Program-made: the position numbers and the translations under genes | Notes under the pieces: generated by a model | Told to the model about the DNA's origin: nothing | Databases searched by the model: none | Seen by the model: the letters and a program-made list of their open reading frames with translations, nothing else | Shown: positions 18,502 to 61,698 of the stretch, piece by piece | Layout: each line of letters starts with the position of its first letter | Position numbering within the stretch: the stretch's first letter is position 1 | Assembly (NCBI GenBank): GCA_025057155.1 | Contig: JANWYD010000004.1 | Coordinates: forward strand, 62,001 to 126,000 | DNA from: Chloroflexaceae bacterium | GTDB lineage: Bacteria > Chloroflexota > Chloroflexia > Chloroflexales > Chloroflexaceae | Length of the DNA stretch: 64,000 nt | Direction of reading: 5' to 3'

Positions 18502-18946
18502 CGTATCGGTCCGTGCTGGACGGTTGGCGGCGGGGTGCGCCCTGGATCTGGCACAACTGCGCCTGTGCCTGCGCGAACCCCGCCATTGTAGCGCAGTCCT
18601 GATTCGATAGGGGAGGCGACCCTGGCGTATACGTGTTCATACTCGGGGTAACAGTAGAGCCTGGGAGCGAGGCCGTCTCGCCCTCGAAGCCACAACGAGG
18701 GCTGGAAGCCCTCGCTTCCAGGAGAAGTGTGAACAGTCGCCCTGGCGTGGAGAAACCCGGTTTCGCCCGCCTGCAACGCGGTGAGTTACGCTACTGCCCG
18801 TTTCCCATCAGGCAGGGGCACGGGGAAACCGGGTTTCCCCACCTCCTCGCTCGGACCAGGTAGGAGCCTGGGAGGGCAAGGCTCTCTCAGACCCTCCCGC
18901 GGAGGCCTGATGCTTGCCCATTCGGTAGTCTACAGGATCAGAAGCG
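18502..18946. other. 445-bp gap rich in small palindromes
   Basis: No gene seen. The gap contains a CGAGGGCT/AGCCCTCG hairpin near 18695, two GGAAACC/GGTTTCC palindromes (18747-18766 and 18804-18840) and a decayed GGGAGGGC palindrome (18868-18890). Confidence 0.55.
18804..18840. repeat. CAGGCAGGGG + GGGGAAACC palindrome unit (family P2)
   Basis: The unit reads CCCATCAGGCAGGGGCACG and then GGGGAAACC/GGTTTCCCC. The same composite occurs, diverged, at 24710-24748 and inverted at 60655-60692. Confidence 0.65.
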
Positions 18947-19048
18947 ATGACCATTGGCTGGACTGAGTGTCTGATCATCCTGGCGCTGGTTGCGCTGATA
19001 GCGGCGGTGGCCTTTCGCGCGGGTTACTTTCGGGGCAGAGGACAGTAA
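18947..19048 (+). CDS. 33-aa single-helix membrane peptide
   Basis: A 33-codon ORF: MTIGWTECLIILALVALIAA and a basic C-end (RAGYFRGRGQ), one TM helix with a positive-inside tail. Its TAA overlaps the ATG of the next gene (TAATG), which suggests translational coupling to the EamA transporter. AGGA lies about 9 bases before the ATG. Such peptides can be partners of transporters, but the family is unknown and the ORF is short, so chance cannot be excluded. Confidence 0.45.
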   Translation: MTIGWTECLIILALVALIAAVAFRAGYFRGRGQ

Positions 19049-19884
19049 TGGGCGTGGTCTTCGGGTTGCTGGCGGCCCTGGGCTGGGGCGCCGGGGATTT
19101 CGCCCTGAGCCGCATCTCGCGGCGCATCGGGCCGCTGGCGACGTTGCTGTACCTCCAGGCCGCCGGTATCGTCAGTATTGGCCTGGTGCTGCTGGCCCGC
19201 AGCGACCCGCCTCCGCTCGACCCGGCGCTCTGGGCGCTGGGGGTCGCCGTGAACACGTTGAACGTCGCCGCGACGCTGCTCCTGTACCGGGCGCTGGCAG
19301 TGGGCACGCTGATGATCGTCTCGCCGATCTGCGCCAGTTTCGCCGTTGTTACCGCCAGCCTGGCGATGCTGGGGGGCGAACGACTCGCCCCGGTGACGCT
19401 CGCGGGGGTGGCGCTGGTGATGGCAGGCGTGGCGGTGGTCTCGCGGGGCAGCAGAGGGGAACCCCTGGGGTTGAAAGGAGTGCCGGCGGCCCTTGGCGCG
19501 GCGCTGGGCTAAGGGGTCTTCTTCTACTTGCTCGGGCCGGTCACCGCGGGCCTCGGTGTAGCCTGGCCCATTTTCATCGGGCGGGTAATGGCCTGCGGCG
19601 TCGCCGCCCTGGCCTTCCTCTGGCAGCAGCGGCGTCCCGCACCGCTCTCGCTGCGTCTCCTGGGCATGATTGCGATCGCCGCATCGCTCGACACCATCGG
19701 CTTTCTGGCCTACAACACCGGCATCGCCACAGCCTACGTCAGCGTGGTGACGGCCCTGGCCTCGATCTTCAGCGCGGTCACCGTGCTGCTGGCGTGGGTG
19801 CTGCTGCGGGAGCGGCTGGTCAGGACGCAGTGGGCGGGGGTGGTAGCGGTGCTGGTGGGAGTGTTGCTGGTGAGCTTGCGGTGA
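19048..19884 (+). pseudogene. EamA/DMT-family transporter interrupted by an in-frame stop
   Basis: Reading through, this is a 278-codon drug/metabolite transporter with ten helices in two EamA repeats (start MGVVFGLLAALGWGAGDFAL; end WAGVVAVLVGVLLVSL). A TAA at 19510-19512 interrupts it exactly at the junction of the repeats: the codons before give ALGAALG and those after give GVFFYLLGPVTAGLG in the same frame. Everything else is intact, so the lesion is recent, a sequencing error, or the halves are made separately (a TTG at 19528 could start the second). Two separate five-helix halves would still be plausible for this superfamily, whose SMR relatives work as dimers. The ATG overlaps the upstream peptide stop. 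Confidence 0.75.
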
Positions 19885-19901: not shown

Positions 19902-20411
19902 ATGGACATCCACTACACCATTATCAACAGCCCCCTGGGCTGGCTGCTGGTGGCCGCAACCGAGCGGGGGATCTGCCGGATTGCCTTTGGGGAGGACGTC
20001 GCCGCGCTGGAGAGCGAGCTGCGCCGCGCCTTCCCGCAGGCGCGGATCGCGCGCGACGATGCCATGCTGGCCGCTATCGCCACGGGGCTGGCCGACTACC
20101 TTGCGGGGCGCGGGCCGTGCCCCGATCTGCCCCTTGATCTGCCCGGCACGCCCTTCCAGCGCCGGGTCTGGGAGGCGTTGCGCGCCATTCCCCATGGGGA
20201 GACGCGCAGCTACGGGCAGATCGCCGCCGCGCTGGGCCTGGGGCCGGGCGCAGCGCGGGCGGTAGGGGGAGCCTGCGCGGCCAATCCGGTAGCCCTGCTG
20301 GTGCCCTGCCACCGCGCCGTAGGCCGCGACGGCGGCCTCCAGGGCTTTCGCTGGGGCCTCGAGCGCAAGCGGGCGCTGCTGGAACTGGAGCGTTCCTCCA
20401 GGTCAACATAA
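19902..20411 (+). CDS. ogt: Methylated-DNA-protein-cysteine methyltransferase
   Basis: A 169-residue suicide repair protein that transfers alkyl groups from O6-alkylguanine to its own cysteine. The N-terminal domain starts MDIHYTIINSPLGWLLVAAT as in Ogt. The C-terminal domain has the DNA-binding helix-turn-helix (GETRSYGQIAAALGLGPGAARAVGGA) and the active site PCHRAVG (Cys near residue 137). The ATG at 19902 matches the family start; a GTG at 19881 overlapping the stop of the broken transporter (GTGA) is an alternative with GGTGAG upstream and would add 7 residues. Confidence 0.93.
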   Translation: MDIHYTIINSPLGWLLVAATERGICRIAFGEDVAALESELRRAFPQARIARDDAMLAAIATGLADYLAGRGPCPDLPLDLPGTPFQRRVWEALRAIPHGETRSYGQIAAALGLGPGAARAVGGACAANPVALLVPCHRAVGRDGGLQGFRWGLERKRALLELERSSRST

Positions 20412-60741: not shown

Positions 60742-61698
60742 ATGAACAAAGCAACTGTCGTCCCGCAGCGCGTTGAGCGGGCTGCCTGGATGTGGATGGG
60801 GGTGGCGTTGCTGGCCCACACCGGCTGGGGCGCCTATCCGGTGCTGGCGCGCTACCTTCAGACGGTGAGCGCTCTGCCCAGTATGGCCGTGCTCTCCCTC
60901 GGCAACCTGCTCGCCCTGCTGGTGTACGGGCCGTTTGCCCTGCAGCGTGTGGACGGGCGCGCGCTGCGTTCACGAGTGATCTGGGCCTTCGCCCTGGTCG
61001 TGGTGCTGCGGGCGATCACCAATCTCCTTGCCGCCCGCTACACGCTGGCGATCTACGTCCAGTTGATCACCCTGATGACGCCTCTGCTGGTAGCCTTGCT
61101 CAGCTCAGGGCTGTTCCGCGAGGCCCTGCCGCCCTTCACCTGGCCCGCCATTGGCCTCTCATTCATTGGCTCACTGCTGATGATGAGCGGCGATCCTGGC
61201 GGCAATGACTCCCTGCTGCGTATCGGCGCGGGCGACCTGGTCGGTCTGGGGCTGGCGTTGACCTCGGCCCTGTGCCTGGCCTTCTACATGCTGCTGGTGC
61301 CGCGCGCGGCGAAGCAGGCCGTTTCGGGTGAAGCGGTGCTGCTGGTGCAGTTGATCGCCCTGACCCTGACCACCGGGGTGCTCAGCCTGCTGCTGGGAGA
61401 GGATCGGGGGCGTTTCGCCGCCATCGGCGCGGGCGACTGGGCAGTGTTTGGAGCCTTCGTCGGCTTCGTGCTGCTGGGGGCGAACGTGGGGCAGATCGCC
61501 GCCCTGCGGCGCCTGGGCGCGCCGCGGGTCAGCAGCACAATGGCCTGGCGACTGATCGCCACCCTGGCGCTGGCGGCGCTGCTGCTCGGCGAGCGGCTGA
61601 CGTCGCTCTGGCAGGCCCTGGGGGCAGGAATCGTCCTCGTCACCATTACCATCTACCTTTCGCGGCAGCGGCAGGGCGTTGCCACACATGAGCCGTAA
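60742..61698 (+). CDS. EamA/DMT-family transporter
   Basis: A 318-residue ten-helix drug/metabolite transporter, with both EamA repeats intact (start WMWMGVALLAHTGWGAYPVLARYLQ; second repeat GDLVGLGLALTSALCLAFYMLLVPRAAKQ; end SSTMAWRLIATLALAALLLGERLTSLWQALGAGIVLVTI). Members export small metabolites or amino acids; substrate unknown. AAGG five bases before the ATG at 60742. It is about 100 bp upstream of the dipeptide epimerase gene on the same strand, and the two may be linked. Confidence 0.85.
   Translation: MNKATVVPQRVERAAWMWMGVALLAHTGWGAYPVLARYLQTVSALPSMAVLSLGNLLALLVYGPFALQRVDGRALRSRVIWAFALVVVLRAITNLLAARYTLAIYVQLITLMTPLLVALLSSGLFREALPPFTWPAIGLSFIGSLLMMSGDPGGNDSLLRIGAGDLVGLGLALTSALCLAFYMLLVPRAAKQAVSGEAVLLVQLIALTLTTGVLSLLLGEDRGRFAAIGAGDWAVFGAFVGFVLLGANVGQIAALRRLGAPRVSSTMAWRLIATLALAALLLGERLTSLWQALGAGIVLVTITIYLSRQRQGVATHEP

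Follow-up and report, generated by a model that had tools for sequence, protein, structure and literature searches.

A transporter gene of the EamA type that is interrupted by one stop codon, and whose start overlaps the stop of a tiny open reading frame (ORF) for a putative membrane peptide, raises the question of whether the arrangement reflects a damaged gene next to a separate small one or a transporter made as two half-proteins with a small partner. The locus lies in a 64,000-nucleotide stretch of a Chloroflexaceae genome, the whole of which is here called the window; the source genome (G000) is assembled as 5.13 Mb in 189 contigs. It is very probable that two separate things adjoin here, namely an EamA gene with one private stop codon, either a recent nonsense allele or a base-call error, and a real microprotein gene.

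Layout of the locus and position of the stop codon

The features of the locus are collected in Table 1. An earlier note on this DNA had described a 33-residue ORF that overlaps the start of an EamA gene split by a single stop codon, and these are present as claimed. The last base of the small ORF's TAA (19046-19048) is also the first of the EamA ATG (19048-19050), the EamA frame contains one in-frame TAA with both flanks otherwise open as far as 19884, and the TTG beyond it starts a 118-residue ORF. The EamA frame is open through codon 154, meets TAA at codon 155 and continues for 123 more codons up to a TGA at 19882-19884. The stop results from a substitution with no indel. Each half lies above the Pfam cut-off for EamA (PF00892) when taken alone (42.3 and 50.7 bits against 28.2), and in the G000 assembly the ten-helix frame of an EamA/DMT protein is broken at codon 155. 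A second EamA gene, which is intact, is found at about 60790-61656 of the window (contig C4:122790-123656). Two intergenic elements, both MITE- or REP-like, lie upstream of the small ORF: one of approximately 110 bp (18630-18741), whose core is an imperfect palindrome and which recurs in some 18 further copies of at least 90 bp (75-93% identity), and another, also palindromic (about 18745-18900), with AAACCGGGTTTC arms and many short matches in the genome.

Table 1. Features in and around the interrupted EamA gene, with positions in the window
Feature	Coordinates	Strand	Remarks
Putative membrane-protein gene, divergent, 124 aa	18127..18501	-	Retained close to the small ORF across several genera
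Two dispersed intergenic repeat elements, 5' of the small ORF	18630..18900	.	Outside the proposed mechanism
Microprotein ORF, 33 aa, predicted single-TM, MTIGWTECLIIL...AFRAGYFRGRGQ	18947..19048, stop included	+	Conserved family, gapless core
EamA gene before the stop: helices 1-5 (repeat 1), the linker and helix 6 as far as its tenth residue	19048..19509	+	
In-frame TAA within helix 6	19510..19512	+	Tyr codon in G001-G004, G014, G016, G032
EamA gene after the stop: remaining helix 6 and helices 7-10, up to TGA	19513..19884	+	
TTG, candidate restart codon, residue 161, within helix 6	19528..19530	+	CTG in four same-genus relatives
ogt-like 6-O-methylguanine-DNA methyltransferase gene	19902..20411	+	17 nt 3' of the EamA stop; Pfam above cut-off

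The same note had placed the TAA exactly between two five-helix repeats, both intact, and this proved not to be so. The intact ortholog of G004 was modelled with AlphaFold2 from an alignment of nine sequences (A3), with a mean pLDDT of 65 that was uneven along the chain; with values of approximately 65-77 around the stop site, the helix boundaries are accurate to a few residues only. In this model helices 1-5 span residues 2-27, 29-51, 59-85, 93-108 and 115-127 and helices 6-10 span residues 145-169, 172-192, 202-228, 233-252 and 261-277, with the linker between the repeats at residues 128-144. Both the stop (residue 155) and the TTG fall in helix 6, the first helix of the second repeat. This is in agreement with Pfam, where the downstream half aligns to the 135-position profile from position 34 onward when read after the stop and from position 2 when read across it. 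Together these findings indicate that the second repeat is left without most of its first helix, and translation resumed at the TTG would yield approximately nine residues of helix 6 followed by helices 7-10. A half-size, five-helix DMT protein or a split pair calls for a break at the repeat junction, and neither codon is located there; with both inside helix 6, their position gives no support to a designed split.

Origin of the stop codon

Further evidence on the origin of the stop came from a search for EamA orthologs in 61 genomes. Matches to the first half were found in 24, of which 21 besides G000 were at E 4e-18 or better; G006, with a weak match (E 1e-8), and G013, whose match lies at the end of a contig, were not counted. 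All 21 carry an open frame of 278-477 aa with no stop within the match. Nineteen were read full-length, and two loci missed by the full-length motif read-out (L023 in G052 and L024 in G040) were counted by open frame alone; stops in the second-half matches of G004, G033 and G045 were taken, from their coordinates, as the genes' own terminal stops. The TAA is private to the G000 assembly, with no conservation among the orthologs, and the relatives named in Table 1 have tyrosine at this site. The earlier note had held that an uninterrupted gene in relatives, together with an untranslated downstream half, would count against its idea of two half-proteins. The first of these was found, and the open frames support its plainer proposal of simple decay or error.

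The codon immediately upstream of the stop carries a second amino-acid change that is seen in the window only. Comparison of the window with G003 gave dN/dS values (Nei-Gojobori) of 0.25 before the stop and 0.16 after it, and changes private to the window relative to G002, G003 and G004 comprise ten synonymous and seven non-synonymous before the stop and 11 and five after it. Purifying selection is still visible in both halves and the downstream half has not evolved faster than the upstream half, a pattern to be expected of a stop that is very recent, of an error or of continued use, and not of old decay. There are more private changes in the window than in its sisters G002 and G003, so that the stop can be dated only within wide limits. 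Elsewhere in the G000 genome, stops within domain matches were counted for two families and were found in none of 83 ABC_tran matches and in one of 14 EamA matches, which is this gene, suggesting that false stops are uncommon in these families. Reassignment or read-through of TAA was considered and rejected, since the adjoining small ORF itself terminates in TAA.

An interrupted transporter is by itself ordinary. The region 19048-19884 would be a common kind of EamA/DMT-type transporter gene, with ten predicted helices and one premature stop inside helix 6, arising either as a recent nonsense allele, in which case the transporter would have been lost while other intact EamA genes remain, or as a base-call error. 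To a true and recent nonsense mutation, with loss of the transporter in this strain and possibly a polar loss of the downstream ogt-like gene, we give an even chance. The presence of intact EamA genes elsewhere in G000 is consistent with such a loss, the low rate of stops elsewhere speaks against a poor assembly, and the ogt-like gene follows closely enough (Table 1) for polarity to be considered; the gene shows no decay so far, which tells against it. An error of base calling or assembly, such that the gene is intact in the living cell, is somewhat less probable. It would account for conserved surroundings without decay, for a stop seen in the window only and for the additional private change in the adjoining codon, although the counts for ABC_tran and EamA show that the assembly has few lesions of this kind, and the change is a substitution rather than an indel.

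It is very improbable that the TAA is functional and that helices 1-5 with part of helix 6, and helices 7-10 made from the TTG, assemble as a split transporter, perhaps with the small protein. The two half-proteins envisaged by the earlier note could draw on the separate EamA match of each half, on the absence of relaxed selection in the downstream half and on a Shine-Dalgarno-like stretch 10 nt upstream of the TTG. The 20 bases 5' of this codon pair with the 16S tail at -10.0 kcal/mol, which is the strongest value among the window sites compared; however, 6% of 20-mers drawn at random from the window pair as strongly, and the equivalent place in four same-genus relatives gave -6.4 to -8.0 kcal/mol. 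That the window has TTG where these relatives have CTG would help a restart in the window and is also counted against a split transporter. The cut inside helix 6, which deprives the second repeat of most of its first helix, and the lack of the interruption in any of the 21 relatives (0/21) argue against a split, and no sign of selection for a restart at the TTG was found in the window and the four same-genus relatives. A restart there is possible as judged from these pairing energies, and it could lessen any polar effect on the ogt-like gene.

A conserved microprotein family and its neighbours

In the window, as in seven of the 19 other ortholog genomes, the small ORF ends in a stop that overlaps the start of EamA, and these eight ORFs were used to build a profile (A1) with which 82 genomes of the order were searched. 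At E<1e-4 the small ORF was found in 48 of them (E 3e-22 to 3e-5), with one strong match per genome. The matches are restricted to two families, 25 of 41 genomes in the window's own family (f1) and 23 of 26 in f4, with none of nine in f3 and none of six in f2; in a sample of the phylum, 15 of 301 genomes matched at E<=0.001 and all of these belong to f1 or f4. The 16 genomes of f1 in which the small ORF was undetected include some that are listed as 99-100% complete (G007, G022, G029, G015), and it may be dispensable or have diverged there. A second copy in G000 (contig C3, L002) was rejected as a chance match: the next-best profile match has an E value of 0.05, and the C3 match overlaps, on the opposite strand, what would encode the hydrophobic N-terminus of a putative metal-binding protein.

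Thirty of the 48 loci were read as sequence, with records shared between locus sets (for example L033, which is contig C29 of G003) counted once. The core of the protein, which begins at a conserved Glu and ends with the final RG, has 24 residues and is gapless in all 30, and the genes are mostly of 33-38 codons. In G031 the small ORF is located at 2118070-2118168 of contig 1. Pooled pN/pS over the core is 0.37 in genus g1, 0.13 in g9 and 0.40 in f4; conservation is thus only moderate in two of the three groups by this measure, and with a gene of this length few changes underlie any single pairwise comparison within g1. The spread, the gapless core and the pN/pS values together argue that this is not a chance hydrophobic ORF, and the suggestion of the earlier note that it is a real gene is strongly supported by its presence in more than half of the genomes searched and by that core. 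Judged by these sequence comparisons, 18947-19048 is a real gene for a predicted single-span membrane microprotein under purifying selection in two Chloroflexales families. No model in Pfam or NCBIfam, libraries that hold described families only, was above cut-off for the microprotein, no significant match was found in the PDB and no paper on it was found in the literature searched; within these libraries and this literature the family is apparently undescribed. A consensus scan found no promoter 5' of the small ORF.

The neighbours of the small ORF were read in 21 regions, in which it was placed by coordinates (the motif missed L111, L122 and L123), and they were seen to change from genome to genome. 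A same-strand EamA gene follows within 1.5 kb in seven regions (G000, G004, G012, G016, G031, G036, G045), a gene named from its sequence as aminotransferase-like adjoins the small ORF in six (G005, G008, G009, G016, G045, G065), with a partial match to it in G051, an Ada/Ogt gene is found downstream in four (G000, G009, G011, G016), and the divergent small membrane-protein gene is located within 2 kb in nine. The product of the last, at the window's copy, is a putative small multi-span membrane protein with no Pfam family above cut-off. None of these four neighbours was present in G033, G039, G042, G048 or G054, and only distant ones were seen in G030. All four stand in a row in G016, and in G045, which belongs to the other family (f4), the order is small ORF, aminotransferase-like gene, EamA; this row and this arrangement make an ancestral cluster of the small ORF and its neighbours likely. 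In four genomes of f4 (L107, L116, L117 and L122, from G042, G048, G051 and G054) the small ORF comes directly after a run of ABC transporter genes, putatively for oligopeptide (Opp-type) import, a setting unlike that in f1.

In the genus of the window the EamA gene would probably be translated by termination-reinitiation, the overlap of the small-ORF stop with the EamA start alone pointing to this. That the microprotein also serves this EamA transporter in particular, as a subunit or regulator devoted to it, is a proposal independent of the question of the stop, and one that we consider distinctly unlikely. The overlap of the genes in eight genomes including the window and the nearness of EamA in seven of the 21 regions, one of them in f4, are consistent with such a role, as is a co-occurrence across 61 genomes (both in 16, small ORF only in 15, EamA only in six, neither in 24) that gives a Fisher p of 0.016 with kinship ignored. 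Against this, 15 of the 31 genomes with the small ORF have no clear EamA ortholog, which shows that EamA is not an obligate partner, six of the 22 with EamA have no small ORF, and in several genomes the gene close by is aminotransferase-like or Ada/Ogt rather than EamA. The transporter partnership raised by the earlier note is weakly supported.

Possible roles and comparison with known systems

The conserved Glu precedes the hydrophobic stretch of the microprotein and an Arg-rich FRxGYxRGR motif follows it; as a whole the family can be recognised by ECLIIL...AFRxGYxRG. By the positive-inside rule, the Glu before the span and the several Arg residues after it predict an N-out/C-in topology. The protein would presumably work by binding to a larger membrane complex.

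Among solved structures the nearest to the EamA gene is LicB (7b0k, 7paf). The two have in common a pair of EamA (PF00892) repeats and ten predicted helices, which are intact in the relatives of the window; the similarity is remote (E 2.4e-4) and the G000 assembly differs in the stop inside helix 6. For the microprotein, the Glu shortly before the hydrophobic stretch is reminiscent of the N-terminal helix of TatA/TatB/Hcf106 (PF02416, TIGR01410). Similarity to these models was sub-threshold, with TIGR01410 in two of six members and PF02416 in one of six, and all scores were below the cut-offs (at best 13.7 against 56.5 bits for TIGR01410 and 10.8 against 21 for PF02416). In TatA an amphipathic helix follows the N-terminal helix, whereas most members of the microprotein family end before there is room for one. 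The only PDB line obtained with profile A2 was Psb30/Ycf12 of photosystem II (VLAFRGG against AlAFRaG), a likeness that was rejected as being at chance level (E 0.62 over 18 residues).

A role in the reaction centre (RC) was also considered. The PDB copy searched holds RC-LH entries close to Chloroflexales, including 8ydm (aligned to the M subunit of G031 over that subunit's full 306 residues), 8iug, 8hju, 8j5o and others. When two profiles and a single member of Roseiflexus type served as queries, no convincing match to the small chains of solved RC-LH complexes was obtained at E<=10. Reaction-centre genes were found in 64 of the 82 genomes (63 above cut-off), and co-occurrence with the small ORF is not strict: 44 genomes have both, four the small ORF only, 20 the RC genes only and 14 neither, for which the Fisher p of 0.0008 ignores kinship and carries little weight. 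One of the genomes with the small ORF and no RC genes, G045, is listed as 100% complete. Neither line of evidence supports a reaction-centre subunit as far as the chains modelled in the PDB are concerned, and the lack of a match despite the RC-LH entries, taken with a co-occurrence that is not strict, makes it unlikely that the microprotein belongs to the RC core; it may be part of another membrane complex or act as a regulator. A broader suggestion, under which a core photosynthetic or respiratory membrane complex of Chloroflexaceae- and Roseiflexaceae-type bacteria has the microprotein as a small subunit or assembly factor that was overlooked, is doubtful and is put forward tentatively, by likeness to RC-LH small polypeptides that were found by cryo-EM only.

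The family is of modest importance, in that it is easily missed in gene calling, has no family model that we could find and is conserved across two families. The closest parallel is provided by the RC-LH complex of Roseiflexus castenholzii, for which the published account describes very small, single-span polypeptides, TMx, h and I, and states that TMx has an N-out/C-in topology and was absent from the annotated database (PMC10432797). Small single-span subunits have been missed before in this order. The microprotein differs from TMx, h and I in matching no PDB chain and in belonging to a family that does not strictly track the reaction-centre genes; it resembles them (PMC10432797) in being very small, single-span by prediction and from related bacteria, and its family supplies specific sequences to seek in existing proteomics data and cryo-EM maps of cultured relatives.
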